Shown: piece after piece, positions 25,201 through 58,200 of the stretch | How positions within the stretch are numbered: the first letter of the stretch is position 1 | Layout: the number at the start of each line of letters is the position of its first letter | Assembly (NCBI RefSeq): GCF_037975245.1 | Contig: NC_092562.1 | Span: 9,899,001 to 9,963,000, forward strand | DNA length: 64,000 bases | Reading direction: 5' to 3' | Source of the DNA: Apostichopus japonicus | Taxonomy: Eukaryota; Echinodermata; Holothuroidea; Aspidochirotida; Stichopodidae | Position numbers and translations under genes: made by a program | Notes under the pieces: model-generated | The model's database searches: none | What the model was told of the DNA's origin: nothing | Seen by the model: only the letters and a program-made list of their open reading frames with translations

Positions 25201-28200
25201 AGTTTTTCTGTTTTTTTTCGATATTTTTATTATTCTTTTTTTTCTTATTTTTTGTAGTATCAGCCTGTGACAGTCAACCATGTCTTAATGGAGGACAGTG
25301 TTCTTCAAATCCCAGGACCGCAGAAAGACTGGCTTATTATACCTGTACTTGCAGTGAACCTTATATAGGACTTCAGTGTGAAATCAACACCATTCGAACA
25401 ACGGTTAGACCTACAGCGAAGGTAACGGTAATGCCTGCAACAACAGTAACACCTACAGTCCCTGTCACAACCACTCAGAGAAGGACAACGATTCCATTAA
25501 CTGTTAGTCCCTGTGACAGTATGGACTGCCAAAACGGTGCCTCGTGCAGCATGGTATCAACAGGCCCGCATTGTACGTGTGCAGCGGGGTTTACAGGTAA
25601 CGATGATGAAAAGTAAATTAACGATTTAATAATTAGTACACAGTACTTGAGTTTTAAGAAAAACTTGAGTGAAATCACCATTATTGATTGTAATTAGCAT
25701 CTCCAATTTTTATCCCATCTTCAGTAATCTTTTCTGTACTGCCTAAATTTGGCAGTACATGATTGGTCGAGAGAACAAAGAAGTCAGCAAGTTGTACCTG
25801 ATACCGACAGTTGTGACTAAATTTCTAAATTTGTGTTCATCTGTACGAAATATGCAACAGTTTGTGACAACAATGGATGATGATAATTCAAAATATTTTT
25901 CAAGTCCTATTTGCTTGACAAATGCACCATATTAAGTTCAAAGAAATACTTCAGAGCATTCTAAACGAACAGAGGAGGAGCATATCGGTTTGTACATGGA
26001 ATAACCACAATGCAGCTATTTTCCAGTAGGAGTAGGACTAATACTTTACAAACACCAGTTATCAACCTACTAAGATATGATATCATTCTTTCTTCTCTGT
26101 TGTTTTTTATTAAATTCTGACAGGACAATTTTGTGAGGTTAATACTGATGATTGTCTAAACAACAACTGTTTAAACTCAGCAATTTGCATCGACGGTATC
26201 AATTCGTTTATTTGTGCCTGTGCTACGGGATTCTTCGGACCTACGTGCGCCTTCGAGGTGAATGAATGTGCTTCGAATCCTTGCCGAGGAAGTTCTACAT
26301 GTGAAGATCTGATTGGCCAATTCCGATGTATCTGTGCTCCTGGGCTGACTGGGGCCACCTGCGAAGATGAAGTCGATGACTGTGCCAGTGAACCTTGTCA
26401 AAATGGAGGTGAGATAATGACATCACTCCTTGCTCACATGTCCACTCACACTGTGCACCACCCTATTTCTATCAAATCTGGAGAATAATTGTAATCATTC
26501 AGCCCAGCTCTCTCCCACAGTGTCCAGACACTTCTAGATCATTGGTCCCCAACCTACAGGTTGCAAAGGTTGCAAAGGATTTTCGATGGGTCCCGAGATC
26601 AATTCATGTACCGCGGAATAGATGAATTTATCCTTAGTCGAAGTATCAGTATAAACTGGACATGGTGGCCCTGTGTGCTAATCTCAGGATTGCACTGTCT
26701 GCTCTTGAAACCGAGATTGATGAAGTTGTGGCACAAAAGCAGGGACCACCATCACATTAGCAACCATATTATAATTGCATTTTAATGCTATATGGAGGAG
26801 CGAGGGGCGGGGGAGGATTGATAGGTCGCAGCTGAATACCAATTTTACTTGCTGGGTTGTGGACTTGAAAAGGTTGCAGACAGCTGCTATAGGCTACTGT
26901 GATCATTCTCCAATCAAGAGCATTTGATTGAGTGTTTTTGAATTAACTATCTATTCTTGAATTATCTGGTTTTCGTTGACCTTTCAACCAAGTAGCCTAA
27001 GAAGTTTTTATTTCCTACAGAACACTGCAGTTCATCATTCAACATTTTAGTTTACGATCTCATTTTCCTTTTTTCAAAAGTGATTTTCAAAGAAGAAGTA
27101 ATCGTAGATTTCTCAATAGTATATATTATTACAACAGATGGGTACTTACAAGGTCGACTACTTTTAAGGAGATACCATGGTTTCCCTTATTTTTGGATAT
27201 GTCGGTCACTTATGTATATATATATCTTGTTATTCGCTCCTTACATGATGTGTTTGCAGCTATTACTATACTGATCACTTTACCAGGTGTTTCAAATAAA
27301 AAATGTCCAAATTTAACTCTTTCTTCTCTTCTCTTATCAGGTCTGTGCAGAGACTTACTGGATGGATATCGCTGCGATTGCATTGAAGGCTTCACAGGCC
27401 TAAACTGTATGATTGATGGCAACCAATGCGACAGCAGTCCATGCATGAATGGCGCCACCTGTCTAGACTTGGTCAAAGCCTATCAATGCATATGTCCTCT
27501 TAATGTCATCGGTACTACTTGTGAGAATGACCTCATCAACGAATGCGACAGTCAACCCTGCCAAAATGGAGGTGAGTTGTGCGGTGATAAATTAAAAATC
27601 AATTATTTAATATTTCACTACCATTTGAAACTTCTGCAGTTATGAAAGTAAATATTTGAGATAAAAAAGTAACTTTTTGTAGGTTATGTTATTTCTAGAC
27701 AATAGAGAAATGTTTAATTAAATAAGGCACCTCTATGTTGGCTGATTTGTGGATTGGTTGTTAAATGCTTGCTAAGTTTTACATACGGGAGACCATTATT
27801 TTAATTTCTAACATACTCTAGGCAAATATTGAGGTACCCTCTTAATTATTTTCTGCATGTGTGGCCCTTCAGATGGTTTGTCAGCAAAGCTATCTACCAG
27901 TAACAACTTGGACCTTTTAAAAAAAAAATTTTTATGAAAACTCCACCTTACAATTAGAACATCTTGCTGTTTAGCATTTCAAAGACCATATTAAATTATA
28001 AAATGATGGTTTTCTCCTAGATTAAAATCCAACAGTGCTCCATGCTTTGATCCAATCCAGAGATAAATCCAAAAGGTTCCAGATGCATCAGTGTTTAGAG
28101 TGGCTGAGAGAATTCATTGTACAGTCACTAAATCTAAATCTGGCTCTGGTTAAACAAAGTTGAAAATGTGCTGCAAACTAACAATTTGTATGCTTCTCAT

Positions 28201-31200
28201 ACGTAGCTACTACTCTATCCAATCAATCTCTCTAGCCTTCATGATTCTTATATTTCTGTCTTATTTTTATTTTTTGTTACCTTCTTACATGTGTTTCTTT
28301 TGCAGGTACTTGTGAAAACCTTGTCAATGAATATGCATGTATATGCCCACCTGATTGGTTTGGCACCAACTGTGGCTCAGATGGAGACCAGTGTGCCTCC
28401 CAACCGTGCCAAAATGGCGGCACCTGTACTGACGGATTCAGGGAATACACTTGTGAATGCCCACCTGGATTTTTAGGTTTGTCTAGAATTTTCACAAACA
28501 GCTGGTTGTGCTTGGATCGTAGAGTTTACCACAACTCAAAGTTGCTTGAGCATAAAGATTTTTATAATTTTTTTGATGACTTGTTGTGAAATGGAACAAA
28601 GGGCGAAATTAATATCCAGAGAGTTTATTACTTCACAATACTTTCATCTACAGCAGATGTACCTATGTGCATAGCCTAGCTGTTTGGCATATAAGAGTGG
28701 GAGCTGTTAATTTGAACTGCTTAGGGCTTTCTGCAAGCTAATTATGCTCTTTGAAGCAAATAAGACACACATTAAAGCGTTTTCATGGAACATTGTATTT
28801 GGAACTTAGAAAACAGTTGCCGAACTTCAGTTACGAGTACCAACCAGTTGCATTAAAAGTCTATGAATTAAGTTAATTTTAAAAATGTAAAAATTAGTTT
28901 TATTATAATTCAGATATCTTGAAGCCCCTTCTCAATCAGAAAGTGGAAACGAAATATTTCCTTTTGCTTGTGATAACTATGTATGATGCCAAGAGCTTAG
29001 AAGTCTTTTTTGACGATTGGATTCTGTAAAATGGAATTTATCACCTCACATTAATGAACTTTTGTTTTGATGATATAGGTGTTATTGCCAGACAAAAGTA
29101 TCCAAAACTTTTATTCGCTTCACCTTTGTCAGTTTTTTAACCTATCTTGCCTTAAGTTCTTTCGTTTTATACTGTAAGTGGAATTATTCTAACTTCAGAT
29201 TGTGTGTCCGATCTCGTATTGACCATCACAATTCCAAACCAAACCATTGTTTGCTTTCCTCGTCTGTCCAGGTACGAGATGTGAAGTGGATACCGATGAA
29301 TGTGCTAGCTCTCCCTGCCACGAAGCAGCCACATGTGTGGACATGGCCAACGGTTACATGTGTGCCTGCCCTACTGGTTACACCGGGCTGGACTGTTCAC
29401 TGGAAATCGACGAGTGCAGCAGCGACCCTTGCATGGTCGGAGCCACTTGTGTCGATGGCGTCGGTCGATTCTCATGTTCCTGTCCTCCAGGGTTCAGAGG
29501 TGATATCTGTGAGATTGATGTCGATGAATGCGGCAGCAATCCCTGTGGCGATCAGTCCATCTGTGAGGACCAGGTTAATGGTTTTATCTGCCTCTGTTTT
29601 ACTGGTTTCACAGGACTTCTCTGCCTGGACGAAGTTGATGAATGTGCCAGCGATCCTTGTTTGAACGCTGCCACATGTGTGGACCGAATTGACGGATACA
29701 ATTGTCAATGTCTCGTTGGATTTCGAGGGACTCATTGTGAAACAAACATCGATGACTGTGTCAATTCTCCGTGTGTTAATGGTAGATGTATGGACGCTAT
29801 AGACGGTTACGTCTGCAACTGCTTTCCTGGATTCGTTGGAACCGACTGCGAAATAGAAACCAACGAATGTAACAGTAACCCCTGCCAGAACGGTGCTACC
29901 TGTCTGGATCAAATAGATGGATTTATTTGCTCATGTTTGCAAGGATTTGACGGAACCCTTTGCGAGGTCGACATTAATGAGTGCAGTGGTAATCCCTGTC
30001 TGAACTCTGGGACCTGTATCGATAACATTAACAGTTACACTTGTATCTGCCCTCCTGGCTATGCAGGTCAAAACTGTGACACTGACATCAAGGAATGCGC
30101 TAGCTCTCCTTGCACGAATGGTGCGGTCTGCGTAGATCTGATTGGTCGATTCTCGTGTACCTGTCAGCCAGGGTTTGTTGGTTCGACATGCCAAATTAAT
30201 GTAAATGAATGCGCCAGCTCTCCTTGCCAAAATGGAGGCGTCTGCAACGACGTAGTTAACGGTTTCTCCTGTGTCTGTTCACCCGGATATGATGGACTGA
30301 CTTGTGAGATAGACGTAGATGAATGCACGAGTAATCCTTGCAAAAATGCGGCTATTTGTACTGATCTTGTCAATAGATACCTGTGCACTTGTGTACCTGG
30401 GTTCTCTGGTTTAGACTGTGACATAGATATCAATGAATGCAACAGCTCACCCTGTGAAAATAATGCCACCTGTATCGACCGGATCAACTCCTTCCAGTGC
30501 TTGTGTCCAGCGGGGTTCGAAGGAACCACCTGCTCTGGCGACATAGACGAGTGCAACAGCAGTCCGTGCGTAAATGGTGCCACCTGTGTGGATGGTGTCG
30601 ATGGATATAGCTGCAGTTGTGTGGACGGTTTTATCGGAGACACCTGCCAGTCCAATATCAACGAATGTGCCAGTCAGCCCTGTGAGAATAACGGAACGTG
30701 CACCGATGGCATTGATAGCTTCACATGTGCTTGCGAGGAAGGATTTATTGGTGCCACTTGTCTGGAGGAAGTCAATGAATGCAGCAGTGGTCCATGTTTA
30801 AATCAAGCCACCTGCATTGACCTGATAGCAAGGTATTCATGCACTTGCCCCTCAGGTTTTGAAGGTCTCCAATGCGAGTCAGATGTGCTAGAATGCGAGA
30901 GTTCCCCATGTCGAAACGGGGCAACCTGTGTAGATTTAATCAATGGCTACAGATGCGACTGTCAGCCTGGGTTTGAGGGCGTCACTTGTCAAGTTAACAC
31001 GGACGAATGCTCCTCAGGTCCTTGCACCAATGGTGCAACGTGCAGGGACTTGGTCAACGGATACAGCTGTCTCTGCCAGCCCGGTTTCCAAGGTGATAAC
31101 TGTGTCGTAAACATCGACGAATGTGGTAACAACCCCTGTCAAAATGAAGCGACCTGCTTTGACAGGGTGAATGGTTATCTGTGTGTTTGCCCGCCTGGAT

Positions 31201-34200
31201 TCAATGGTAATGATTGTGAATTTGATATAAACGAGTGTGCGAGTACTCCTTGCCAGAACAGTGCTCAATGTTTGGATGCTATTAATAGTTTCTCTTGTAG
31301 CTGTTTCCCTGGATTCGTCGGCACACGTTGTGAGGTGGATGTCGACGAATGTCAGAGTTCCCCCTGTCTGAATGGAGGAACTTGCGTTGATGTCGTGAAT
31401 AGGTACCAGTGTCTCTGTCCGTCTGGTTATGCTGGGACACGCTGCGAAGAGAACGTCAACGAATGTGCCAGCGACCCGTGCACTGATTCTGCCGTTGCCT
31501 GTGTAGACTTGATCAATGGCTTCACCTGTAACTGTAGCGCTGGCTTCATAGGTTCTCTCTGCGAAACAGAAATTGACGAATGTAATAGTACGCCTTGTCA
31601 GAATGGTGCCACCTGCGTTGACCTGCAAGCAGGGTTTGAATGTCAGTGCCCAGCCGGGTTTGTGGGTGTCGTCTGTGACGTAGAGATCGATGAATGTTCC
31701 AGCGCGCCGTGCAGCAACGGTGCCACATGTACCGATCTCATCGACGGATATCTTTGCACTTGTCCTCCCGGTTATTTCGGCCGGACCTGCGACAACGAAG
31801 TCGACGAATGCGCAAGCTCTCCGTGCAGGTTTGGTTCGACCTGTGATGATCTTGTGAATGGCTTTGATTGTATCTGCAGCGAAGGCTTTCAAGGCGACAC
31901 GTGCGTGGTAAATATTAACGATTGTGAGAGTGACCCCTGTCGAAATGGAGCGACCTGTGGAGACTTAGTAAACGGCTTCCAGTGCAGTTGTGCGTCCGGG
32001 TATCAAGGCCAATTTTGTGAGACCGAAGTTGATGAATGTTTGAGCTTGCCCTGCGCTAACGGAGGTTCGTGTAATAATCTGGTCAATGGCTTTACATGCC
32101 AGTGCAGTCCGGGCTTCGAGGGGACACTGTGCGAAATCAACACGGACGAATGTGCCAGTGCCCCATGTGAAAATGGTGGAGTGTGCATCGATTTGACTGA
32201 CGGTCACATTTGTGAATGCGCAGATGGTTTCACGGGGGATACTTGTGCCGTAGATGTCAACGAATGTTCCAGCAGCCCTTGTCTGAATGGTGCCCGATGT
32301 CGAGACCAGGTGAACGGTTACGTTTGCCTCTGTAGCGAAGGATACGACGGAACACTCTGTGGTACAGAGATTCTGGAGTGTGCCAGCGATCCGTGCCTTA
32401 ATTCTGCGACTTGTCAGGAAGGCATTGCTGGATACGCCTGTATCTGTGACGTGGGCTTTGTGGGGATAAACTGCGAAACAAATATCAACGAATGTGATTC
32501 CGTGCCCTGTATGAACAATGGTACCTGCCAGGACTTACAAGGAAGATACGCTTGTCAGTGTCAACCTGGTTTCCAAGGGAACAACTGTGAAGATGATATT
32601 GAGGAATGTCAGAGCTCCCCGTGCCAGAATGGTGCGACCTGTGTGGATGAAATCAACTCCTACTTTTGTCAATGCGCAGAGGGCTTCGGCTCGGTCAACT
32701 GTGAGGTCAACATTAATGAATGTTCCAGTGAACCATGCTTGAATGGCGGTCAGTGTGTCGACCTGGTCAATGAGTTCCTCTGTGTATGTGTTCCCGGGTT
32801 GACCGGCAGTTTGTGTGAGACTGACTTAGACGAATGTAGTTCCAGCCCTTGTCTGAACGGAGCTACCTGTACGGACAACTTCAATGGGTTTGTTTGTGAA
32901 TGCCCTGCGGGTATCAATGGGACGAATTGTGAAGCGGACATACTGGAGTGTGCCAGCGATCCATGTACTAATAACGCAGAGTGTCTGGAGGGAATTAACG
33001 GCTACCAGTGTCAGTGTGTTCTTGGTTATGCAGGTGAGCACAAAAAAACTTATTTGTTGACAATTTTCTTTGCAAACAACCTGATGAAAGGCGATTAAAA
33101 TGATTTTGACTTTCCGAAATCGTCTTCCAAATTGGGATAAAAGAATCCAAAATAAAGGTAAATTTCAGAGAGAAACCAACATTAATTAAAGATTAAAAAA
33201 TAATTGTTAAAAGTAACTAACTTTAAGGCTATAGTTTTCATGCTAAATTAAAGGGTTTTATTTGTGTGTGTAGCAGTTGACTTCAGTTTGGTGATGAGAG
33301 TGGATAATTTGTGGAAGTTGTTCTTGTTCATGCATTGCAAATGACATTTTTATGCAAGGCATCATCAAGTACCTCACAACGTTACATATAAGATCTGTCT
33401 TTATTTATTACACAGAGGAAGTGTTGTGGTCGTTGTCAAGTATCGTACAGCCGTTGTTATTCAGTACTAGTACTGTCAATTGCTCAGAGATGTACAATCT
33501 TTACATTCTTCAGCCTGAGACGCACTTCCGTGATTTAAACATTTGATTAAACTCCCAATCTAATTGGAGATGAAATTGTGTTAGCATTAGTATGCACCCT
33601 CAATCTCCCGCCTTTCTCACTTCAGGGGTAAACATTCAATTTGCGTTAATAACTGAATCCTCAGTCATAATGCTGTAGCAATTTCAATTCAGTTTTCTTC
33701 CTTTTCTTTGTAAACAAGGTGACAACTGTGAAACTGAAATTGACGAGTGCCTAAGCGATCCGTGTCAGAACAACGCCACCTGCACAGATATGATTGGTCG
33801 ATACCAGTGTGATTGTACACCGGGTTTCTTTGGAAGTCAGTGTGAGAGTGAAGCCATCGAGTGTGCGAGCAACCCCTGCGCTAATGGAGGCAGTTGTCTT
33901 GATCGTATAAATGGATACAGGTGTCGGTGCCTGTCTGGATTTCAAGGTGGGTCATGAGGGAGGAATATTACTGGTTAAAGACCACGGAAAGTTATGTAAA
34001 TTTAAATGAAAGGATTGGTTCAGGTGTTTGACATGTCTATTTTGTATGAAAAAGCACAAAAAGACAAAAAGAACATTGAAGAAATTACCATGATAGCATG
34101 CTCTGTTAAGGAGATATGACACTTTGAAGATATCAAAAAAATTTTGAAAACGACTGGTGTAGAAAGACTAACTGTGAGGGTGTGATGTCACATCCTCACT

Positions 34201-37200
34201 TCCTTAACATGTGTGAATATATTTCTTTAAAAATTATTTACATTTTTTAACACATTTGAAAACAATATAATCAAAAATTCTTCAGATGTTTAATCTCAAA
34301 TACTTCCTTTGACAAATATGAGATCTCCTGACATATCTTTTGGTTGAAAGTCATGAAATCTCACAAAATATTTTAAAAAAATAACAAAGACTTTTTAGGA
34401 ATGTGAGGATGTGACATCACAGCTAGTCAGATTTCAGCAGTTTCTACACAATCTAATAAAACTTTACACTTGAATATCTCTTTAACCGAAAAAGACATTT
34501 GAACAGTTTTTCACCATTGTGTTTCTTTTATTGTCTTCTTTCATATAACATAAACATGTATGACAACTGAACCAATCCTTTAAGCTTGTGTGTGATGTTA
34601 AAAGGTGACCTCTTGTATCAACCACGAAAGCATGCATATCAGTAGACCAATAAGGTTCAATTAAAAGCAAAACCAGACTAGAATATAAACAGAAGATGCC
34701 GAGCATTTCTCGTCACAGTTGAACTGACCATGGAGTTACTGAGTGCATGACACACTAGATTGACTAATGCTTAAGCGATATGCTGTAATATATAAGAAAA
34801 TACAATTATGTTGTGATTTGGTATGGTTTCGTTGTGATATAGTATGGTATGGTATATGACAAAAAATATTGAAAAATCATTTAAATATATGGAATAGAGG
34901 GCTATAAAATGCCATAAGAGCCTATTAATTATGCTTATCTAAAAAGTAATTATTAACCTATTTCAAAAGCATAGCTCTTTGCAGTTTTCGATGAAAAAAA
35001 AAATAGTTTGGCGATAAAGACGGTACACTATAAAATCAACTTCATGCATGACTAGAATAGTTTCATATTCTTAATTTATTATAACTGAAGTGTGGGAATC
35101 CTAGCAAAATCTACCTAGGCTTCTTTCTCTTGTTCATCCTTGCAAAAATATTTCTTAAACGTTCCTGGTAACCCAAAGGTATACACTGCGAAACAAATAT
35201 CGACGACTGTGCGGACAATGGCTGTGAGAACAACAGCACGTGCGTGGATGGGATTACAACCTACACATGCGAGTGTGTTCCAGGATTTGTCGGGAGTCTG
35301 TGTGAGATAGACGTTGACGAATGCGCCAGTGGACCTTGTTTGAACGGTGGAACGTGCCAAGATCTCTTGGACGAATATAGATGCAATTGCCAGCCAGGGT
35401 TCATGGGCCAGAGATGCGAGATCGATATTAATGAGTGCGATAGCAGTCCGTGCCAGAATGGAGGTGAGATATAAACTAAGTTAAACTCAAATGAGTTTGG
35501 TCATTATTTTTTGTAGTTTTGGAATAATATGGCGGTAGGTACGGGGCTAGCCCAAAAAATTTAAATACTGTAGACGATACTGTCACTCGTTGCCAGTAAG
35601 TTTTTTAAAAATCTTTACTGTGAACTACGTATAACTTTCATCCATTAAGAATAATTATTTAAGGGATTGATTACTGCATTGCTTTCTTAACTCAGTTTAG
35701 TAAAGAAAATGTCCAAGCCATGTGACAGTACATCTGTGTGACTGTACAGTTCTTTTTTCGTTTTGCATATTGGAATATTTTTGACTTGTACCGTTTAACA
35801 ATGTCTGTATTGCACTAAACATTTGCATAGAGTCCAAGGTTCCAATCGCCGTTTTTCCGAACAAAAAAATTGCTTTAGAAAACACAAGGTTAGGTGCTTT
35901 AAAACAGTGAGCTTGCCTTGAAGCTTCAAAAATGTATTTCCAAAGATCTCTTCTTAGATCACAGTGACAAACACAATTGTATATACTACTAGTGATCAAC
36001 TCATGGTCACAGTTATGTTTTATAGTTATACACTTTTAGTCTGTTGACTTTAGCGGAACCAGATAGGACTGATATGATTCTGTGAAGTGGCTGGAGAGCA
36101 TCATTGGCTGATGTCCAAATATGCAGTGGTCAAAAGAGCTAGAATTGACTGGTTTTCTGGTTCTATCTTTTTAATAATTCTTGGACAAACTGAACTCAGT
36201 TCCATAAAGTATCCTAGTGATATTTTAATTAGCAAGAAGTCACAAAGCCCCTGGGGATTTCTGGTTTGGTTAAATTCTGTTATTTCCTAATGATTGTTTT
36301 TCTTTCAGGAGAATGTATCGATCTGATAGATGCATTTAGATGTGAGTGTGTTGTGGGTTTCTTCGGACTGTTATGTCAGGAGGATGGTGACCAGTGCGCC
36401 AGCAATCCTTGTCTTTACAACGGTACCTGCGTAGATTTGGTGAAAGCTTATCGATGTGAATGCCAGTCGGGGCTCTCTGGGGATAGCTGTCAGATAGATG
36501 TCATTGATGAATGCTCCAGTAATCCCTGTCGAAACGGAGGCAAGTTATCCCTCAGTAAATGAAGTATTGACCTCAAAATGTTAGCATGCTAGAAATGCTA
36601 GAATTTTTATTTTAGAATGTGCTTTCCCTGTTGGTGTCTGCATCTCCAAGGTTACTTCCAGTTATTGAGGAACCTGTGTTACATTAGGCAATTAAAAATG
36701 TTTCAGAGAGGAAACATAGTTTGATGTTGCCATGTGTTGGTATAGTAAAAAGCTTGTTGAAAATTTGGAACACCTGTGACCATAATTTGACTTACTTGCA
36801 TATTTTGGGCCAATACCGATCACCTTTAAATGCACACCCTTTTGCGTTTTGCTGTTAAAATAAGGTTTTAAGCTAAGTGTTAAGGTTTATTCTTAAAGCC
36901 CCAAATTTTCTTTGACAGATTTTTGACATTTTGTGCAACAAAACTATGGTACCAATCTCTTCAAGGGATATTGATGTAACCCAAAACTTACTCTACAAGC
37001 ACAAGCAGCTGCTTAAAAAAACACTTTGCTTTGTTGTATTAATAGTTAATGAAAATAACAAACCTGATTTAACAGTCTATTCTAAACGTACATACATTAA
37101 GAAGGACGTATTAAAGGTTAGGCTCGGTGATGACATTTGTATTGGAAAAGCAGCCAGTATTTTTTTATGTAGTTAGCATCTTGTTCTGGCAGTAAAGGAA

Positions 37201-40200
37201 CAAACTAATATTATATTATATTATATTAATTGCCCGATAAGATAATTTTGCAGTACAAATAAGTGCAATCAGTGACTCTAAATTAACATCCGTTTATTAG
37301 TAGCAGATTCCAATTGAACCAACTAATTTGAGAATAGATTTAAAAGATCCAGGCAGGAGAATTAAATAGAGGACTATTTTGAAAGAACATGATACAAACA
37401 TCTCGGTCGAGAATCAAGGTACTATGTCTAACAATGATCTTTATAGCTTAATGACCTTTATGACCTAGGACGGAGAATCATTTATTCGGAATCACATTGC
37501 AAAATGCTACACAGAATGGGCAAATTGTTATACAAGTGCAATAGATGTATATAGTAGTTCTTCACAGATACAATATTGTTCTTGTGCACAGGAACAATAT
37601 TGTTCTTGTACACAGCAACAATATTGTTTTAGAACAAAGTTCAAACTCCTCAAAACTGCTATGCCAACAAATTTGACCAGTAAATTATTCCCTGTGGGGA
37701 GTCGTGCAGTAACCGCATAATATGGCTCCTGACCTTCTAAAATAACCCCAAATCAAAATAAGTGGAGTAGATAAACAGAGGATGCTGATTATCTCAAGTA
37801 ATATCAGGTAACAAGATCAGCACTAACCAAGGAGCTACTAAACACTTTTCTCAGAAGTAATATGCAACAGACTATTGTGCTAATATAACAGTGAAACCTC
37901 CAGCCTGCATGCTGTTGACTGACAGATTCCTTACCCACCGAATTAAAAAGGTTTGAAGAGTCTCAACAGGTTGGAGCTGTACTCCACAGTCCATGACTTG
38001 AGATTGCATCATAACAGTGCACCACTAATGACTGTTAAAGGCATTGAAGACTCGCCCCAAACCGCATGCGGCCATCTGAATAAGTTAACTTTCTGTCGCT
38101 TGCAAGTGACGTTTTGTTCATGTTGCTACAATATGCAGACAGTAATGAAACGTGTTATCTTAATTGTTATCTTTAGCTGGACCTGAGATGTCCATCGCTG
38201 TATCGTTTGTATACTGTGAGTGGGTATTGACTGTACTGACTGTACACTAGTGTCTAATTACCGACTGTAGCAAGCTGTGTGTGTATTTTCTGGGACCGAT
38301 GGTTATGTTTAACACTTCTGTTACACCTCATTCGAAACTAGGTCAAATTACCGGCATTAGATGTCTCTTTTTGCGTGAGTCTTCACAACCTTTAACTGTA
38401 AATATGAGTTTTTTGGGGTCAAATAATTCTCTGCTCTTGTTTAAACTGTATTAATATGATATCAGACTAGACATGTATGTATTTATTTATTTCTTCATGC
38501 CTCAGGAGAATGCATCAATCGTGTGGGAGGATACCAATGTTCCTGCATCAATGGCTGGTTTGGAATCCACTGCGAGGAGGATGGCGACCAGTGTACCTCC
38601 TCACCTTGTCGAAACCAAGCCACTTGCCTGGACCTGGTCCAAAATTATCAGTGTCTATGTGCGGCCGGGTTCGAAGGTAAGCTCACACGATTTCAAACAG
38701 TTATTACTTCCACCGTCCAGGTTTTGTTTGCATGCGTTAACCTTGTGATGAGAACCCAGTCGTCAATACCACTACAACAGTGTACCTTGTTGCATCCATA
38801 AGAGGGAATCCCAAAAGGAATAGAGTCAAAGGTCACAAGGGGAACAATCTGTTTTTTTTAGAAAGAATGTTTTTGTTCGGTGGGGGTAAGAGATATCCAA
38901 GGAGGGTTCCTGTTGAGTAGTCTGTTTATACTGATGGCTGTAAAGGAGAGTCAAAGGATTAAAGGAGGGAATAGCAGAAAGAGAGAGAGAGAGGTTGTGA
39001 GATAGCTAGCTATTGGACTAAGGATTGTAGTACATAAGTCTGTACTTGTATTTGATACCGTACTCGAATTTTTCTTTTTTCTTCTTGCCGGCGGTAAAAA
39101 GGAACTTGTGTGTGTGTGTGTGGATATATATATGTATGTGACACATAGGAAGACTGTTTATTTCTGGATATTGAAACATTTTGGAATCAAAATTCTATAC
39201 TGTAAATTCCTTTACAGTGAATGAAATGGTTGATGTGCCCAAACTGGATTGCTACAAATAAGAACTGGAAATTTGTGATCTTTTCTGATCCTCACTAAAT
39301 TCTTGGACAAATTTAACTCACTTGGTCTGCAATAGTCAGATAATTATGTGGAATTTTGAGCAAATTGTATGGCAATGAATCACAAAGCCAACTGGCCTAT
39401 TGGTTGGTACTCGTACTTAGGGCTCTTTACTCTGTCTATGAGGGTGTCTGTCCTTCTAATGATAACTATTAATGTGCTATTGAATTCCACACTACAAATC
39501 TATGCTAATTCTGCTCTGTTACCAATGGAACACTTCTGTCGGACGTTTCACGTCCCTCAACTAACACCGGTCATAATATTTCCCCTTTCTGTGTCCGCTT
39601 GTCAGGCAATCAGTGCGAGACCGACATTAACGAATGTCTGAGCTTTCCCTGCGGAAACAATGCTACCTGTATGGAAGAAGTAGGACGCTACACCTGCCAT
39701 TGCATACCTGGTTATACCGGCCTTCTCTGTGAGTCCGAACTATTTGAATGCGCCAGCAGTCCTTGCCTGAATGGAGCTACCTGCAGTGATCTCCTGAACG
39801 GCTATCGGTGCCTGTGTCCAAGCGGTTTCGCAGGCTTTAACTGTGAGGTCAATATCGATGATTGCAGCGGCCATGGCTGTCGGAATGGCGCCCCCTGTAT
39901 TGACCTAGTGAATAGCTACAGGTGCCAGTGCCTTGCTGGATTTCAGGGACAATTCTGTGAGTTTGAGGTCAACGAATGTAACAGCCGGCCGTGTTTAAAC
40001 GGAGGGACCTGTGTAGACGAGGTGGCAGGGTTCTTCTGCGATTGTCTTACAGGTTATAATGGATCACAGTGTGAAGTAGACGTCGACGAATGCCAGTCAG
40101 CGCCGTGTCAGAATGGTGCTACCTGTGCAGATCAACCAGGCGGCTACCAATGTCTCTGCGCTCCTGGCTACCAGGACAGTCACTGTAGCAGCGAAATCAA

Positions 40201-43200
40201 CGAGTGCAGCAGCTCCCCCTGTCTCGAAGGGGGAACTTGCCTGGATTCTGTGAATGGCTATCAGTGTCTATGCCCCGTCGGTTTCCTCGGGAATAGATGC
40301 GAGGAAGAGATACGAGAGTGTGCCAGCCAGCCGTGTCAGAACCAAGCCACATGTAGGGATCTGATTGGTCGGTATCTCTGTGACTGTACCGTCGGCTACA
40401 CGGGGGAAAACTGCGAAGCAGAGATCGACGAGTGTGCTAGTGATCCTTGCCTTAACGAGGGTACGTTGTTAAACTCCCTTGTATTTAGTCTCACTGTTAT
40501 TTAATGCACAGAATAAAAAATATTCTCTCTGCTAATTGTTGAAGATAAATAGAAACATTAAAATTTTTATTTAGTATTTATCGTGTATTTAGGTTACATA
40601 GTTTCAAGCTTGATCCGCGAAGGTTCATTTAAGTATCCTTCATTTTTATCCTGTCAAAAGCTGGCGACCATTGTGATAAGGAAAAGTCAGAGGTGGCAGG
40701 GGGGGGTCTGATGGGTTGAGGAGGGGGATCAGATTACCCAATTACAAGTGCCCAACATTTGGATCTGACACAATGTGAAAATTCAGTTTCCTTCATAATG
40801 TTTTGTGAAGAAGGTGCTGGGTTAATATATCATAACCTATCATTAATTTTGGCAATGAAAATATTTGAATGATGCGATGTCAAAGGTCAACTGACATGAG
40901 GACTGCTACTGTAAGTGAAAGCCTTCTTAAACCCAGGTGCACCCATATCACAGATATCACAAGTGACAAATGTTTCAGTAATATTGTTGAGGATTGAAAA
41001 TCCTTTCAAGTTTGTTTCTTCCGATATCACTTTGAGCAGGCTTGTTACACTCATTGAAATAGGGCATTAATTTCTTGTTATTCTGAACTGTACTATTATT
41101 CAGGAAATTATTTCTGTAACTGTGTCCTGACAACAGTCTTTGTTTTTTTTTTTTTATCTCACAGGAGATTGCCAAGATGTCATAGGTGGCTACCAATGTG
41201 ATTGTCTATCCAGTTTCACTGGAGTTCAATGTGAGATCTTCGTGGACGCGTGCTCCTCCAACCCCTGTAAGAACGGCGGTGCATGTCGCAACACAGGTAC
41301 CGGTCAGTTCATCTGCGACTGCGAACCGGGCTACGGCAGCTTGCTCTGCGAGGTGGAGAGAAACGAATGCGAGAGTAACCCCTGCCAGCACAATGGACAG
41401 TGTCTCGACGGTATCAACTCCTATCGTTGCATCTGCCTCACCGGATACACGGGTAGGACTTCTGTTCGGTGTTTAGGTCTTCCGTTACAGTACTGATTTC
41501 GCTTAACTCCCGTTGAAAAAAAATCAACGATCGATAAAAAACGTTGAAAATCGATAAAAAACGTTGAAAATCGGTTAAAAACGAATAATTTCGTTGACAA
41601 GATTTAGACTACTGCGGGCACGGGTTGTCAACGAAAATTCCACGAAAGTTATCGCGATCAAAAACCGCAAAGGCAATTCTAGACATATCAAGGTTGTGAC
41701 TTGCGTTGAATCCTTAGTTTAACTACAGCCGTTTTCAGACTCTACCAGAAGTTGTAGAGGAATATTACAAATGTTACAAAAGTTTGATTGTAGATAGAGT
41801 AAGTTCTTTACTAGGTGTTTGAAAAATGATTTGGCTAGGATAATAAAAACTAGTCTTGATCGATCGTAATAAGCACATTCTACGACTCTTAAGTTATAGG
41901 CTAGTATTAAACTAAGATAAGTTTAGGTTAGCTCACCAAGGAACGCAGCGTCAGAAAAAATAGAAATAAAAAAAAAAAAATATCCACAATGAAACATTCG
42001 TAGCTGGATATCAAAGAGATCTTTATTTCCAATAAATTCCTGTGTTACTTGACGTACTACAGTACCGTTTACTACAGAACATCACTCACTAAACAAACTT
42101 TTCTGAGAGCGCATTCCGTACAAAAAATCTCCCCCAGCTTCAATGCACGCAAAAATAAAAAACATCCTGTTATTTTCCCCCTAACCCGTTACTGTAAGTT
42201 GCCCGCGAATGCAGATGGACTGCCCTGGTATTTAGGTCGCAGCCTGGGTCTGGGCCACCTGCAGTTTGCTGCTAACATGTGTATTCCCTACCCTGGATAT
42301 CCCCACCGCCAAACTTTTTTTGAGAGGCTTAGTCCAATCATAAACCTGGCTTTGTCAAATTCACGCCTACCATCTGTTAATTAGCATAGTATTTATCTGA
42401 ACCTTTGGCTGGCTGCCTCTAGAAGCAAACATTATTTTACCCCTACTGTTCGTAATGGAATGGATGTTACCTGAAAACCAAATATTCATTCATATTATAA
42501 GTAGAACAATCCAGCAGGGATAGAAAGTTTATCTTGAATGAACCAATCAGAAGTCGTGCTATTAATAAAACTTGAAACACCTGGCCAGCAAGAGAGTTGC
42601 AAACAATTGTATCCATGACTACTAAGTAAATAAAGCAGTGACTTGGGGCCCACGTTGGGTAGAAATCTGTGGAAAATGAATATATTTTCATTGCTTATTT
42701 GAGTATTGTATATTGGGAAGAGCTGATCAAACATTAGTAGGGAGGGCTTTCAACTAGCCTGACGGCTTTCAACTGGCCTGACGGCATGTACATTTAATTT
42801 AATGAGAAGGGGGAGTTTTTATGAGTCTCCCGGTATGCGTCACATGAGAAGTAAATGTTTTTGTTTTTCGGTTTTATCATCGTTTTTCAAGTGGAACAGC
42901 TCATAAAATCATATCAAATGAAAATAATACATATTTGAATATCCTTCCTTAGTTTTACTAATCAGGAATGTTTAATAAAGCATGCAATGCATCGTTCGAA
43001 AAAGGTAATTTTAAAGTAGAATTGAAAATGAACGACATAAAACAATATCTGTGAAGCGTGTGGAGCACAACTTTGAATATTCGTTGTGAAAGAAAACATA
43101 GCGAACGATGCTTATTGCGTACAGTAAATAAATTTCGCGGAACTGGTATAGAGAAATTACGTACTGCAGCTTACGTCAGAGAAGCTCATAAATGACACAG

Positions 43201-49200: not shown

Positions 49201-52200
49201 ATAGTATGATATGTTGTGCTATGTTCTGTTATGGTATATTATGCTATGTGATGCTATAGTGACTTATTCCTAACATCGAACAGATGCATGCTCTTGGGCG
49301 ATTTTAACATTCGCGTCAATCGTGTTCTTGAACCAGGCTCAGAGGCATTTATCAACTTGCTCAATGCATTATCGCTGAATCAATTGGTTTCTGGTCCAAC
49401 TCATATTTCTGGGAATACTCTGGACCTGATACTAGTCCGGGAAAACAGTGACTTTTCTGTCACAAATATTAGGACGGATTTTTCTCTTTCCGATCATCGA
49501 TTCATATTGGCGACTCTATCTACATCTCGCCCAGTACTGGTGCGGAAACAAATTCAGTTCCGCAAGTTGAATTCGATTGATCGGGAGAGATTTAGATCGG
49601 ATCTTAGTTACGAAATGGATGGGATGATGGCACTTGATTCTCTTGATGATCTGGTAACCGCCTATAATATCCGTACCGAGAGAGTACTGAACGATCATGC
49701 CCCTGTCATCTCTAAAGTAATAACTGTTCGCCAAAGTGTTCCGTGGTTTGATAATGAAGCGTCAAGGCTGAAAACTAAAACACGGAATGCAGAGCGAAGA
49801 TGGTTGAAACATCCAACCTCTGAGAATCATGATTCGTTTCGTTCATTCCGTAACGAATACAAAAACCATGTCGAAGCATTGAAAAGCACCTTCATTCGGA
49901 GGAAGATTGAATCATGTGGCAACGACACCCGTCAACTGTTTGCTACCGTCGCCAACATTACTGGTAGTACAAAGACCAATCCTCTACCGGATGGTGTGTC
50001 AGACGATCAGCTGGCTGGTGACTTTGCCACGTATTTTTATAACAAGGTCGATGTCATCCGGAATGAGCTCGAGCACCATCCTATCTTCATCCCACCTGAG
50101 ATGAGCGTACCACCTTTTGCTTCATTTTCTACCATTGATGTATCGACGGTTACAGCACTCATTCGTAATGCAAAGCCTACGACTTGCCAGCTTGATCCCT
50201 TGCCATCGTCCCTTGTCAAAGAACATTATGACATATTTGCTCCTATATTTTGCAAAATAATTAATACATCGCTCTCCACTGGTAATTTTCACCCTGACTG
50301 GAAACAAGCTATTGTCAAACCACTATTGAAGAAAACTAACCTCGATCATATAAAGAAGAACTATCGCCCGGTTAGTAATCTGTCCTTCCTTTCAAAGATA
50401 GTGGAGAAGTCCTCTCTGATTAGTTTTACTGAACACATCGAGAATCACAGTCTCCTTCCTCCGTATCAAAGTGCATACAGGGCCAACCATAGTACGGAAA
50501 CACTCTTACTGAAATTATATAATGATATCATGTGCAATATGGAGCGCCAGTTATTAACTCCATTTGCCGCTATGGACTTGAGTGCCGCGTTTGACACAGT
50601 CAACCACCAGCTGTTATTGGACATTCTCAAGAAGTGCTTCGGAGTTCACGGGGTAGCTAGAAAATGGGTATCGTCGTATTTATCTGAGAGACAATTCGCT
50701 GTTTGTATAAACAAATCACTTTCTACGCCGATGAAGGTCAATTTCTCCGTACCACAGGGTAGTATAAATGGACCAGTATATTTCACCTGCTATACTAGCA
50801 CAATGAACACATGAATCAGTGATGACCAATTCCTCATTGGCTACGCCGATGACCACAGTATCTACTCTAGTTTTAAACCCGGAGACGTTTCTTCAGAATT
50901 TGAGTCAATCAGGGGTCTTTCATCAACTCTTGAAAATGTGAAACTCTGGATGCAATTTAACCGTCTTAAGATGAATGATGAAAAATCGGAGTTTATCGTT
51001 TTCGGAAGCAATCGCCAACTACCAAAGTGCAATACAGACGTTTTATCCATTGGGGACACTCCCGTCCGTCGTACCCATAGTGTGAAGCTACTAGGTGTTT
51101 ACTTGGATGAAACCCTCAATCTCAAACATCATATTTCCATGAAAGCTCGTGCATCAGCCCTCGCCATGTTTAATCTGAAGAAGATCCGGAAATATTTGGA
51201 CAAGTCGACATGTCTCAAAATTGCAAATGCCATGATTTTCTCTCATATGGACTATTGCAATGGTCTTTTTATCAACCTCCCGGCCTCCACACTTCATCAC
51301 CTACAAAGGATCCAAAATTACACGGCTAAAATTATTCTCGGCAGATCAAAATATGATAGTGCCTCCGCAGCATTGAAGGAGCTGCACATCCTCCCCGTCA
51401 ATGTCCGTGCCGAGTACAAGATCCTCCTCCTCGTTTATAAGTGTTTACATAATTCAGCACCAGCTTATCTGTCCGAGTTGCTGGAAATTAAGACACCTGG
51501 TCATTCAACACGCTCGTCAAAGGGCATCCTTCTTAAGGTTCCTTTCACACGCCGCAATTGTTTCGCAGGCCGCTCTTTCAGCGTCGCTGGCCCTAGACTT
51601 TGGAACGCTCTCCCCGTCGACACAAGAAATTCGAAGACCATCAGAACTTTTAAAGCTACTTTAAAGACTCATTTATTTAAGAAATCGTTTTTATAATTGT
51701 TTTGTTTGTTCAGCGCCATTGAGTGTTTTTTTACAGTAATGTGCGCTATACCAAGTTTTACTACCTTAACCTTAACCCTATATGCTGTGCTATGTTCTGT
51801 TATGGTATATTATGCTATGTGATGCTATGGTATGATATCCTGTGCTATGTTCTGTTATGGTATATTATGCTATGCTATAGTATGATATGATATGCTGTGC
51901 TATGTTCTGTTATGGTATATTATGCTATGTGATGCTATAGTATGATATGCTGTGCTATGTTCTGTTATGGTATATTATGCTATGTGATGCTATAGTTTGA
52001 TATGCTGTGCTATGTTCTGTTATGGTATATTATGCTATGTGATGCTATGGTATGATATCCTGTGCTATGTTCTGTTATGGTATATTATGCTATGCTATAG
52101 TATGATATGATATGCTGTGCTATGTTCTGTTATGGTGTATTATGCTATGTGATGCTATAGTATGATATGCTGTGCTATGTTCTGTTATGGTATATTATGC

Positions 52201-55200
52201 TATGTGATGCTATGTGATGTTGCATTGACCTCAGAGATGTAAAGTCCAGATGCTCCTTGGTACCTTATCTGCTCTCTGTATTTTATTGTTGTTTCTTCTG
52301 ATGTGTTCCATTCTTGTCTTTTTCAGGTACCTGTGTTGATGGTATTAATGGCTTCACCTGTCAGTGTCCTCCTGGATTGACTGGTTCTACTTGTTCTGAG
52401 GTGAATAAACACAAACATTCTTTTCTCTCCCAAGTTACAGAGACAGTTGACTGTTATTGCAACTCAAGCCATTGTACTCCAGTTAGATACTTTTTGGGCA
52501 AAATGAGCAAAACTCCCCTCCACTCCACTCCCTCATCTCTTCCATTCCTTCCACCTCAGTTCACCATGATAATCAAGGGTAGAAGGTTACATTTTTACCT
52601 TTATAAAAAGCAAGTTTGATCTTGTGTATGCTTTCAAGCATTTTGTTCTCACACCATCTTTGATTCATCACTCGATTATCACCTTGTTTTCATTTCTATA
52701 TCCATGTGTTTTTCTGTTGCAGTATGTAGATGTCTGTGGCACGAACCTAAATCCCTGCAAGAACGGCGGGCTCTGTTGTCAGAGAGGGGTGCAAGATTGC
52801 CCTCCGACGATCCCCCTGGGCCAATACCAGTGCTATTGCCTGAATGGATTCAGTGGCGACCTCTGTCAGATAGAGATCGACGAGTGCATCGCATCGCAGG
52901 AACCGCCGTGTCAAAACAGAGGACAATGCATCGATGCTGCCGCGGGGTACAGGTGCGAGTGTCCGATGGGATACTCGGGAACCAGGTGCCAGATAGATCT
53001 ACCCTGCACCCCGGATCCGTGCCAGTTCGGTTCCTGTCAGACGGTCGGGGAAAGTTATCAGTGTATCTGTCGGCAAGGTTACAAGGGTACTGACTGCGAA
53101 CTGGAGGTACAGCCTTGCGATAGCTCTCCCTGTCTCCACGAGGGGGTATGTGCTAACGAGGGAAACAGCTACCGATGCGAATGTACTTTCCCTTACTCGG
53201 GGGATAATTGCGAGACCCAGTTGACTCCGTGCGACGACGGACCCTGTGTCAATGGCTTGTGTCTGGTGATAAACGATACGGCGTTTGCCTGTCAATGTTT
53301 CGATGGGTACCGAGGGGCACTGTGTGAGACCGAGGTACAGCCCTGTGACAGTTCACCTTGCGTTCGTGGATCCTGCACCGACCAGCTCAATAGCTTCGCC
53401 TGCGATTGTCCCGACGGTTTCACCGGCGACACATGCGGGATTGAAGTCCGCCCCTGTGACAGCAGCCCCTGCGTGACGGGAGTCTGTCTCAATCAGAACG
53501 ACACCTATGCCTGCATCTGTGGCGACCTCTACACTGGACTTAACTGCGAGACTAGAATTTTACCGTGTGACAGCAACCCGTGCGTGACGGGACGTTGTGT
53601 CGACCAGGAGGATGGGTATACCTGTGTGTGCCCGGAATCTTTCACCGGACGAGACTGCGACGTACCGATCCCACCTCTTCCCTGCGAGTCCAATCCGTGT
53701 CTGAATGCGGGGATCTGCAGCGACGTCGACGAGTTCACCTACCAGTGTCAGTGTACCGGCAGATTCGTAGGGAGCAGGTGTGAAACTGAGATCCCATTAC
53801 CGTGTCTAAGCGAACCATGCCTCAACAACGGAACCTGCTCAGAGAGTAGCACAGGGGTCTACACTTGCGCCTGTTCCGCACCCTTCACGGGGGATAGATG
53901 TCAGGTTGAACTTTCCGAACCTTGTATGAGTAATCCTTGCATGAACGATGCCTCGTGTATCAATGTGGGATTTGTTTCCTTCTTCTGTTCCTGCGTATCT
54001 CCATTTTACGGAACATTCTGCGAGCAGGAGGTAGTGTCTCCCTGTAGTAGCCAGCCGTGTGTGAATGGTGGTCTGTGTCTCAGTGATAGCCTGGAGTCAT
54101 ATGCATGTAGGTGTGAACTTCCGTTTCATAGTGACCGGTGTCAGCTTGAAATTACCGACCCATGTCTTAGTCAACCCTGTCAAAATGAAGGCATCTGCTC
54201 TAACAATGACTATCAATCGTTTTCCTGTCAGTGCGTATGGCCAAGTATCGGAGAAACGTGTACCGAACGAGCCCCAGATCCCTGTGAGAGCCAACCCTGT
54301 ATGCAGAATGCCACTTGCATCAATAATGACCATTCCTCGTACACCTGTAACTGCTCGCTGCCTTTCACAGGTAGCCGATGTGAGGATGAATTACCCGATC
54401 CATGTCAAAGTTCCCCCTGTATTAATAATGGAGTATGCCAAAATGTAGAGTACCAGTCATTCCTCTGTGACTGCTCGGTGCCGTACACAGGCATCACATG
54501 TCAAAACCTTCTCCCCGATCCGTGTTCTAGCCAACCGTGTCGGAATTCTGCTTCTTGCATCAATAACAACTATCAGTCGTATAACTGTACCTGTGTACCA
54601 CCGTACCTTGGAAGTGACTGCGAGTTTCTGCCTTCAAATCCGTGCAGCAGCTCCCCTTGTCAGAATGGCGGTGTCTGCACAGCAAGCCTGGATTTCTCTA
54701 CCTACTCCTGTGGTTGTAGTCTGCCTTTCTTTGGCAGTCGTTGTGAAGGTCAGCTGGAGGATCCCTGTAGTAGTAACCCCTGTCTGAATAATGGAATCTG
54801 CTCTAACGTAAATTACCAATCCTTCCAGTGTAACTGTTCTCTCCCTCATCGAGGAGTAAGATGTGAGATCCAGCTTCCAGATCCTTGCAACAGCCAACCG
54901 TGCTTCAACGGAGGTACCTGCGTCAACTTGCTGTTCGAGTCATTTCTATGTCAGTGTCCTCCCACCTTCGAAGGGAGTCTGTGTGAAGTGGAACCACAAA
55001 ACCCGTGCGACAGCCGACCGTGTGAGAACAACGGTATTTGTTCCAATCTAGATTCTACAAGGTTTTCTTGCGATTGTACTCTGCCGTACTTTGGTGAACT
55101 CTGCGAAAGTGTGACGCCGAATCCATGTGGCAGCCAACCTTGCCTAAACTCTGGGACATGCCTCAATAATAATTTTGTCTCTTTCCAATGTCTCTGTGAA

Positions 55201-58200
55201 AGCCCCTACTCTGGTGCACAATGCGAAGTAGTGGATGCATGTGCAAGTGAGCCGTGTTTAAACGGTGGTCTCTGCCTGGTGGGTAACAACAATATATACA
55301 GGTGTAACTGCCTCCCAGGGTTCCAGGGTGAAAGGTGTCAAATCTTACCTACTACTAATCCCTGTGCTACATCTCCTTGCCAGAATAATGGACTTTGTGT
55401 TGAAACAAATGATAGCTTCATCTGTGAATGCCTGGCAGGGTTTCTTGGCGATCTATGTACCGAGCAGGCTACGTCGTGTGACCCCGACCCTTGCCGGAAT
55501 GATGGACTCTGCTTGGAAGATGCCTTGGGTGAGTCAATCTGCTAGTTATGGTTACCGTGGCAATCAAAATCTGAGACTGTTCATGCCATTGGGGAACCGA
55601 TTGATGCTCGATGTGTGTGACACACCTGGTACTTAATAGAACAGTTCAGAGAGTAGTTAAGTGGTCAGATATTGTATAGCAGTTTCTAAGGCTTGAATTT
55701 TGTCTCTTGGTACTATGGTTACTAAAAACTTCTGTGAACAAAAAACTGGTATACATCTTTGCACTTCTACAGCAATTGCCCATTTTGATAGCATTTTGCA
55801 ATGTGATACCAGATAAATTATTTCCTGCTGTTCCTTGATGAAAGGAAAAAAAAATCAACAATAATATATTGTTATAATACAATGGATCCATACATTGTAG
55901 TTCACCTTTACAACAACTATTAACAATAAACGTTTAGTCATGTAGTTTGGTCAAGCTGTGTTAGACACATACAATGGTATAATCACACACACATCCATTG
56001 CATAGTATTGAGATATATATCACTGTAGCTATGCTAATTTTGTACTATTGTTGTTATTTTTTTGTCAAATGATCAAACATGACTGTGTGATGTAGTTTTG
56101 TGCAACTCTATATTAGACACATACAGTATGTGTATAGGCTAGATTGTCTCTTCATACATTACCTGTTGCAGTGTGTTTCAATAACAAGGGAGAATTGATG
56201 TCCTTTAGTCATAATAATAATAAACTTTTCCCTTTTGTTGACAGGTCCATTTTGCTTTTGTCCTGATGGGTTTGAAGGTATCTGGTGTGAGCTATCACAA
56301 GGAGTTTGCTTTCCGGAAGATCCTTGTCAAAATGGAGGTGTCTGCTGGGACATCAGAGGACAAGTAAGGAATATGATCTAATTGATTGATTAATTGAATC
56401 TAATTGATGTAGTTTCTTGTTTCTCTCTATTCATAAACATTGCGTCATTTTTCGGGGCATTTGGATGGAAATTGGTTGAGGATTTCATTTCATTTCATTT
56501 ATTTGTTTTTTCTCAATATACGGTACATAGTATGTCATACAAACGTTTACAGATATGAAATTGAGTATAAAGAGAAAGGAAGTGATCTAAAAACCTGAAA
56601 GGCTTATCGAGTAGAGCCACTCCCTAAAGTAGGAAAATAATTAAGTTATCAGTGTTAACGATATAAACAAACAAAGATTTCTAAACAGTATTATGGATCA
56701 ATAATCACTTATGTAAACCTCGCTTAATTGACGTTTAAAGGAACGTGGTGACTGAGAATCATTTTGTATATGATCATGATGATTAAGTAGATAATTCCAG
56801 CAAGTGTTTGCCCGATAACGTATACTCTGTTTACCCAGGTTACTATGGGGAAAAAGTCTATGTATGTGACCAGCCTGTCTTGTATTATAATCATGGATTT
56901 CCTTATTAACAGTGAATAAATTTTTACATGTGGGCGGATTATACCCATTAATAGAGCGATAAGCGAATGTAGCAAGATGAACTTTCACAAGGTCCGGTAA
57001 TTTCAGTAGCTTAAGTGAGGCCAATAATTTACTAGTATGATCGTTATAGTCGGCAGAAGATATATGTCGAATAGCCCTTTTTTGAAGTACAAAAAGTTTC
57101 TTAATGTTATAAGCAGCCGTGCCAGACCAAACTGTAATGCAATAAGTAAGGTGAGGATAAATTAAAGTAAAATATAAAGAACGAAGAATATGTTTTGGTA
57201 AGTAGTGCTTCAATTTGGAAAGAATCCCAACGCCTCGAGAAATATTTGTTGATATTGTATTTATGTGATCACGCCATGTCAGACCAGAATCAATAGTTAC
57301 CCCTAGTAAAGTGGTAAAACACACTTTTTTTAGACTACTACCATGCATCTGTATGTCAGACAGAATATTCCTATTCCTACCTTCATTGAAAACAACATAT
57401 TTTGTCTTACCTACATTTAAAGAAAGTTTGTTAGCTGAAAACCAAGCATGAAATTCATCAAGCACATGACAAATTCTAGCCCTCATTTCCACAGGATCCA
57501 AGCCAGAGAAAAAAATATTAGTATCATCAGCGAATGATATGATAGTACAATTATCTGACACATGACAAATATCATTTACATATATTATAAAAAGCAAGGG
57601 CCCCAATATAGATCCTTGTGGAACCCCACAAACAACATTCATGCAATCAGAATCCGTATGAAGACAATTTGTAAATTGTTTTCTGTTTGATAAATAGCTT
57701 CTAATCCAGTCTAGTCCTGTGCCTCTTATGCCATAATGTGACAATTTCATAAACAAAATACGGTGATCAATTGTATCAAACGCTTTGGACAAGTCCAAGA
57801 ATACACAGACGGAAATCCTTTTATTATCTATGGCATCATACAATACCTCCAAGGCCTCAGTCAAAGCAAGTTCGGTTGAGTGTCCTGGCCGATACCCATA
57901 TTGACTTTTGAACATAATATCATGTTTACTGATAAAATTATAAATACGATTATGAACTATTCTTTCAAAGATTTTAGAGAAGCCTGTTAGTACAGAAACT
58001 GGGCGATAATTACCTATAACATCGTGATCCCCTTTTTTAAATTAGGTTATAGATGGCTTAAAACTTTATTGTATTAATTCAAATTCAATTTTATTTCAGT
58101 ATGAAAAGTTTGATCATGCATCTTGTACTTTCATTAAACTTTAAATCCATTTATTTCTCGCTTGGACAGCTATTCTGTGATTGCCGGACTGGCTTCACAG

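Follow-up and report, generated by a model that had tools for sequence, protein, structure and literature searches.

Proteins with repeated domains commonly expand by several domains at once, and the account from which this is taken describes a block in chicken nebulin of four exons and seven domains, with all exon borders lying inside domains, and gives duplication of single domains as the likelier mode for EGF domains (PMC1553488). Among large EGF proteins, EYS (eyes shut, spacemaker) is given 28 EGF and five laminin-G domains in one source (PMC8431288) and 29 EGF and five laminin-G domains in another (PMC3281914), and a study of JAG1 and its relatives reports conserved exon borders that cut EGF modules (PMC2725086). 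Here we describe an EGF array in a 64,000-nucleotide stretch of the sea cucumber Apostichopus japonicus (assembly GCF_037975245.1, contig NC_092562.1, positions 9,899,001 to 9,963,000 of the forward strand), hereafter the window, to which coordinates refer unless another contig is named. A single gene in this window appears to contain, in two copies, an old block of several EGF exons that is about five modules long after splicing, a reading to which we assign a probability of about 0.85. The first copy would span exons 4 and 5 and the opening part of exon 6, the second exons 9 and 10 and the opening part of exon 11, and the ends of exons 3 and 8 may belong to them as well.

The exon borders are predictions made from the genomic sequence, using splice signals and the reading frame. 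A splice-site caller of our own, with rules favouring EGF cut points, reproduced the borders of exons 4-12 and added exons 3 and 13. All nine of exons 4-12 are divisible by 3 and are open in the frame that begins 2 bases into the exon (phase 1-1); AG precedes every one of them, and the donor is GT in eight and GC in exon 10. The latter GC-AG intron starts at 36540-36541 (..CGGAG/GCAAGT, the slash marking the cut), and the corresponding donor of exon 5 is GT. The sequence-only reading of this DNA had noted that exons 4-5-6 and 9-10-11 agree in length (285-231-171 bp), phase and module cut points, and that a long exon follows each set (exon 7, 3,762 bp; exon 12, 855 bp); the agreement was recovered to the base, and both long exons were found as described. 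Within the 38-residue EGF module the introns fall at two cut points, namely NG/G between cysteines 2 and 3, or GFx/G before cysteine 6 (the end of the last exon reads NE/G), and the lengths of exons 4-12 lie at, or at most 3 bp off, multiples of 57 bp. Since introns cutting the modules at two places only make the lengths quantised, three equal short lengths are weak evidence by themselves, with a chance of about 0.04 by our arithmetic for eight short exons. The repeated order of exons among exons 3-13, each length being given as occurring twice, has a chance of 5e-4. Of eight further EGF arrays that were fetched from the same genome, the four that were scanned lack the series: their 55 script-called exons include none of 285 or 231 bp and one of 171 bp.

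Splicing exons 3-13 in silico yielded 56 consecutive EGF modules, numbered 0-55. Along this array five kinds of feature lie in register at an offset of 41 modules and nowhere else: 1) DDC..N.C occurs twice, across modules 0/1 and 41/42. 2) DG[ND]QC occurs four times, at the ends of modules 3, 5, 44 and 46. 3) LVKAY occurs twice, in modules 4 and 45. 4) WFG..C occurs twice, in modules 5 and 46. 5) A linker longer by one residue occurs twice, in modules 4 and 45. Random placement of the four DGxQ linkers and the two insertions would produce the observed pattern with a probability of 2.9e-6. The residues singled out in the sequence-only reading (DDC..N.C, DG.QC with LVKAY, and WFG..C..DGDQC) are real and stand at matching places 41 modules apart. 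In 16 fetched stretches of other EGF arrays we found no match to DG[ND]QC or LVKAY and one to WFG..C, which reads through a stop; DDC..N.C matched six times in the same stretches and is accordingly less special. An exact DNA pattern for C..DG[ND]QC, which is blind to linkers of other spacing, to those split by an intron and to those in stretches of the assembly that were closed to the scan, matched 11 times in the 671.6-Mb assembly, against 2 matches for a reversed control pattern. Four of the 11 lie in this gene (exons 5, 6, 10 and 11), and the seven outside it all fall outside EGF modules, one with an in-frame stop. By the exact pattern used, the combination of paired DGxQ linkers with an extended linker is found at no other place in the genome.

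Collinearity of the modules was evaluated by centring pair scores by row and column and shuffling the module order 1000 times, using two scores, BLOSUM and rare identity. Modules 0-5 against 41-46 form the top six-module window by both scores (p = 0.001 by BLOSUM and p = 0.009 by rare identity, corrected for all windows), and the three-module core 3-5/44-46 reaches p <= 0.001. The similarity extends from 1/42, with a weak beginning at 0/41 (module 0 against 41 is slightly above average, at +6.0), through exons 4/9 and 5/10 and into 5/46. In a run of 54 modules the window 1-6/42-47, which is defined by the exon pairing, comes 1st, 3rd and 2nd among 946 when three scores are used with centring. 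Removal of the linker columns leaves it with uncorrected p values of 0.003 and 0.017, and removal of the linker and NGG columns with 0.004 and 0.009; the other windows of this linker-removed test were picked after the full collinearity result had been seen. Taken exon by exon (5000 shuffles, p values uncorrected), the core in exons 5/10 lies at the floor of the test, with p = 0.0002. Genome-wide matching, in which the 150 best of 1290-2177 candidates were scored per query exon and self-matches were left out of the ranks, points the same way for this core: the top match of exon 5 is exon 10 (84.2 bits, the runner-up having 77.5), that of exon 10 is exon 5 (84.1 bits, ahead of exon 9 at 82.3), and no other pair consists of reciprocal best matches. 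Exon 4 also finds exon 9 first, with a margin of 0.8 bit (97.8 against 97.0).

A number of results from the same analyses weigh against a duplicated block. In the order-shuffle test eight-module windows fail (p 0.062 and 0.060). Without centring, the window 1-6/42-47 ranks 157th, 4th and 253rd of 946, the lead being taken by consensus-like modules of exon 7, and without the linker columns no window survives the all-window correction (lowest p 0.096 and 0.066); much of the block signal sits in linkers. Modules 1-2 of exons 4/9 on their own give p = 0.065, and the pair 6/47 is below average (score -14.3, p = 0.92). Among the genome-wide matches, exon 9 finds exon 7 (107.1 bits) and exon 12 (100.7) before exon 4, which comes third at 97.1 bits; exon 6 has its top match in exon 7, with exon 11 eighth; and exon 11 finds exon 5 and then exon 10, with exon 6 24th. 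Furthermore, modules 44 and 46 score 147 with each other, above 44 against 3 (141) and 46 against 5 (128), so that copying or conversion has probably taken place inside copy 2 as well. Quartet scores favour the inner duplication (3/5) as the earlier and the outer one (3/44) as the later, and the likelihoods do not decide the order.

A module phylogeny had been proposed as the means of refuting the duplication, should the modules of exons 4, 5 and 6 fall closer to other modules than to those of exons 9, 10 and 11. Our tree of 56 modules and 38 usable columns, in which 6 of 53 branches are starred, joins module 5 to the pair 44/46 and module 1 to 42 (94/47), and counts against the block in lacking the sister pairs 2/43, 3/44, 4/45, 5/46 and 6/47. 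In a first constraint run with four clades (4/45, 5/46, 3/44, and 3+5+44+46), holding 4/45, 5/46 or 3+5+44+46 together gave a likelihood above that of the free search, and the 3/44 constraint lowered it without rejection by the approximately unbiased (AU) test (p-AU 0.366). A second run, with another model, seven constraints and 5000 resamplings (fewer than the program advises), lowered the likelihood under all seven, of which the AU test rejects none; 6/47 is the poorest fit and is excluded by bp-RELL and c-ELW. The runs thus disagree in sign, as the constraints 4/45 and 3+5+44+46 raise the likelihood in the first and lower it in the second. For modules 2, 3, 4 and 6 the tree does give closer neighbours than 43, 44, 45 and 47, with little support, and the AU test rejects no pairing tried; at face value it contradicts several of the proposed pairs, and statistically it decides nothing. 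As a separate observation, modules 40-42 (exons 8/9; 33719-35463) and 48-50 (start of exon 12; 39606-40000) show a second, shorter collinear likeness, in which modules 40/48 form a starred branch of the tree (99/92) and the window 40-42/48-50 fails the all-window correction by BLOSUM (p = 0.166).

These results have to be set against other ways of arriving at the same pattern. The equal lengths might be a by-product of quantised exons, with a run of 5, 4 and 3 half-modules recurring by chance and the residues being ordinary EGF consensus; this would suit the near-multiples of 57 bp, the odds of the three-length match and the lack of resolution in the single-module trees, but with five kinds of non-consensus feature in register, the outcome of the order-shuffle tests and the reciprocal matching of exons 5/10 against it, we hold it to be very improbable. 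Scarcely more credible is the view that the positions were never copied as a block and owe their shared features to gene conversion or to calcium-binding linkers having been selected in parallel. DGxQ is a functional calcium-site variant that is also found in coagulation factor EGF1 and is hence selectable, modules 44 and 46 look homogenised, and the linkers hold much of the signal; yet neither process would account for the corresponding places of the linker insertion, DDC..N.C and LVKAY, or for the agreement of the intron cut points. A proposal on function, that paired coagulation-factor-type DGxQ calcium linkers and the extended linker form a functional segment whose two copies were kept by selection at both ends of a long EGF rod, for example as matched hinge or contact points, seems to us unlikely.

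The sequence-only reading had also included the long exon, proposing that a four-exon block was duplicated and that its long exon later expanded or contracted. There is good support for a duplicated block of several EGF exons, but not for the long exon as a member of it. A long exon does stand behind each cassette, and the top ungapped placement of exon 12 along exon 7, which starts at module 28 (score 75), may reflect some shared ancestry of the long exons. However, collinear similarity is absent from 6/47 onward: the first seven modules of exon 7 show no ordered similarity to exon 12 (p = 0.79), its last seven show none to the end of exon 12 (p = 0.84), and the collinear placement of exon 12 on exon 7 ranks 20th of 26. 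Growth or shrinkage of the long exon in one copy is thereby left without sequence support. Since ordered similarity is lacking from 6/47 on, the duplicated block ends inside exons 6/11, and the modules past it, including the long exons, show no matching order. The four-exon version is a variant of the explanation that we favour, with which its odds overlap, and we consider it a doubtful one.

For the two-copy block without the long exons, the most likely mechanism would be an unequal exchange within the EGF array that copied genomic DNA including introns, and such a copy would stay in frame because the introns are of phase 1 at the two EGF cut points. Divergence of the copies would then have gone on until synonymous sites reached saturation and any clear trace in the introns was lost, the cut points and a few unusual residues having survived. 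The synonymous divergence of the three exon pairs, an estimate suggested at the outset, was computed, and the sites proved to be saturated: the proportion of synonymous differences (pS) for 4/9, 5/10 and 6/11 is 0.99, 0.80 and 0.80, which is beyond correction. With each pair of introns compared in one direction at E <= 1, introns 4/9 and 5/10 gave no match. A 15-base match between introns 6/11, on opposite strands (E 0.025), was taken as chance. The top match between any two introns is one of 26 bases between introns 9 and 11 (E 6e-4). As synonymous sites are saturated and the introns are without clear trace, we regard the duplication as old, and these data allow no more precise date.

Table 1. 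Predicted exons of the EGF array and its DGxQ linkers (window positions)
Feature	Position	Strand	Length or source	Content
Exon 3	25258..25596	+	splice caller	last EGF is module 0, possible upstream end of copy 1
Exon 4, copy 1	26124..26408	+	285 bp	modules 1, 2 and first part of 3
Exon 5, copy 1	27341..27571	+	231 bp	modules 3-5, core of the putative duplicated block
C..DGNQC linker (exon 5)	27406..27429	+	DNA pattern and motif count	modules 3 to 4
Exon 6, copy 1	28306..28476	+	171 bp	only first part (module 5) within similar block
C..DGDQC linker (exon 6)	28371..28394	+	DNA pattern and motif count	modules 5 to 6
Exon 7	29272..33033	+	3,762 bp	33 module lengths; no ordered similarity to exon 12
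Exon 8	33719..33946	+	228 bp	modules 39-41; upstream neighbour of copy 2
Exon 9, copy 2	35179..35463	+	285 bp	end of module 41 to first part of 44
Exon 10, copy 2	36309..36539	+	231 bp	modules 44-46, core of the putative duplicated block; GC donor
C..DGDQC linker (exon 10)	36374..36397	+	DNA pattern and motif count	modules 44 to 45
Exon 11, copy 2	38506..38676	+	171 bp	only first part (module 46) within similar block
C..DGDQC linker (exon 11)	38571..38594	+	DNA pattern and motif count	modules 46 to 47
Exon 12	39606..40460	+	855 bp	7.5 module lengths

The surroundings of the array (Table 1) suggest that the gene probably encodes a large EGF and laminin-G protein, secreted or at the cell surface, with an EYS-like layout. 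The DGxQ linkers fit the calcium-binding EGF pattern, which would make the block likely to be a stiff, calcium-bound spacer segment. An exon upstream, which may be part of the same gene, encodes an LDLa domain (Pfam, 37 bits), and within 30 kb downstream open reading frames (ORFs) encode laminin-G pieces alternating with EGF pieces. Pfam laminin-G models match eight of ten such ORF pieces, in five regions, the piece of the first region being sub-threshold (20.0 against 22.9). We call the gene EYS-like by layout only, a label that does not denote orthology, and the joining of the array to the laminin-G exons in one transcript is putative. A scan with Pfam EGF_CA, which took in exons 4, 9 and 12, gave 27.9 bits for exon 9, 87.1 for exon 12 and 26.3 for exon 4, the last just short of the 27 bits of the curated cut-off. 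In the PDB, exons 10 and 11 match Notch1 and Delta-like 1 best. Their matches to coagulation factors VII, IX and X, in which the letters of the factor chains themselves are not displayed, start at the D of DGDQC or at most three residues before it, in agreement with DGDQC being the calcium-site linker motif of EGF1 in these factors.

Further along the window, inspection by eye revealed open frames resembling reverse transcriptase on the + strand (49252-51696) and retroelement-like sequence, probably on the - strand (about 57000-58040), both between EGF exons, as well as two minisatellite-like tandem arrays between exons (60800-61240 and 62910-63140) whose units measure roughly 20 bases. Pfam EGF matches 18 stretches of a second long frame of EGF modules at 52573-55545, and to the eye these modules (DPCSSQPC...) look unlike the ones in exons 7 and 12. 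On a different contig (C22:22060001-22096000) there is a further EGF array, with laminin-G-like pieces, that looks Crumbs-like by eye.

Several described systems share parts of this organization. Like the Notch and Delta arrays, the modules are of the same EGF type, as judged by the PDB entries that exons 10 and 11 match best, whereas the likeness to EGF1 of factors VII, IX and X concerns one EGF module. The intron preceding JAG1 exon 6 is usually of phase 2 and the one following it of phase 1; here, the introns of exons 4-12 are of phase 1. In a layout like that of EYS, the EGF array would be followed by laminin-G regions, five of them here, that alternate with EGF pairs; unlike human EYS, for which 28 or 29 EGF domains are described, a single exon here is as long as 33 EGF modules, and upstream there is an LDLa exon. 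We found no published report of this cassette in a literature search of partial coverage, the cassette not being directly nameable in search terms. The locus carries a warning that agreement in exon length, taken alone, says little in EGF arrays, and it offers an example of a block duplication that would be preserved by intron cut points and rare residues and is invisible to single-module trees and synonymous sites. Growth of this kind is otherwise an ordinary mode for a repeat protein, and as the duplication of multi-exon blocks is already known from nebulin, the present case is a further example of it. It resembles nebulin in that a multi-exon block recurs with its borders inside domains, and it differs in that the many regular copies of nebulin are replaced here by two diverged copies of about five EGF modules.

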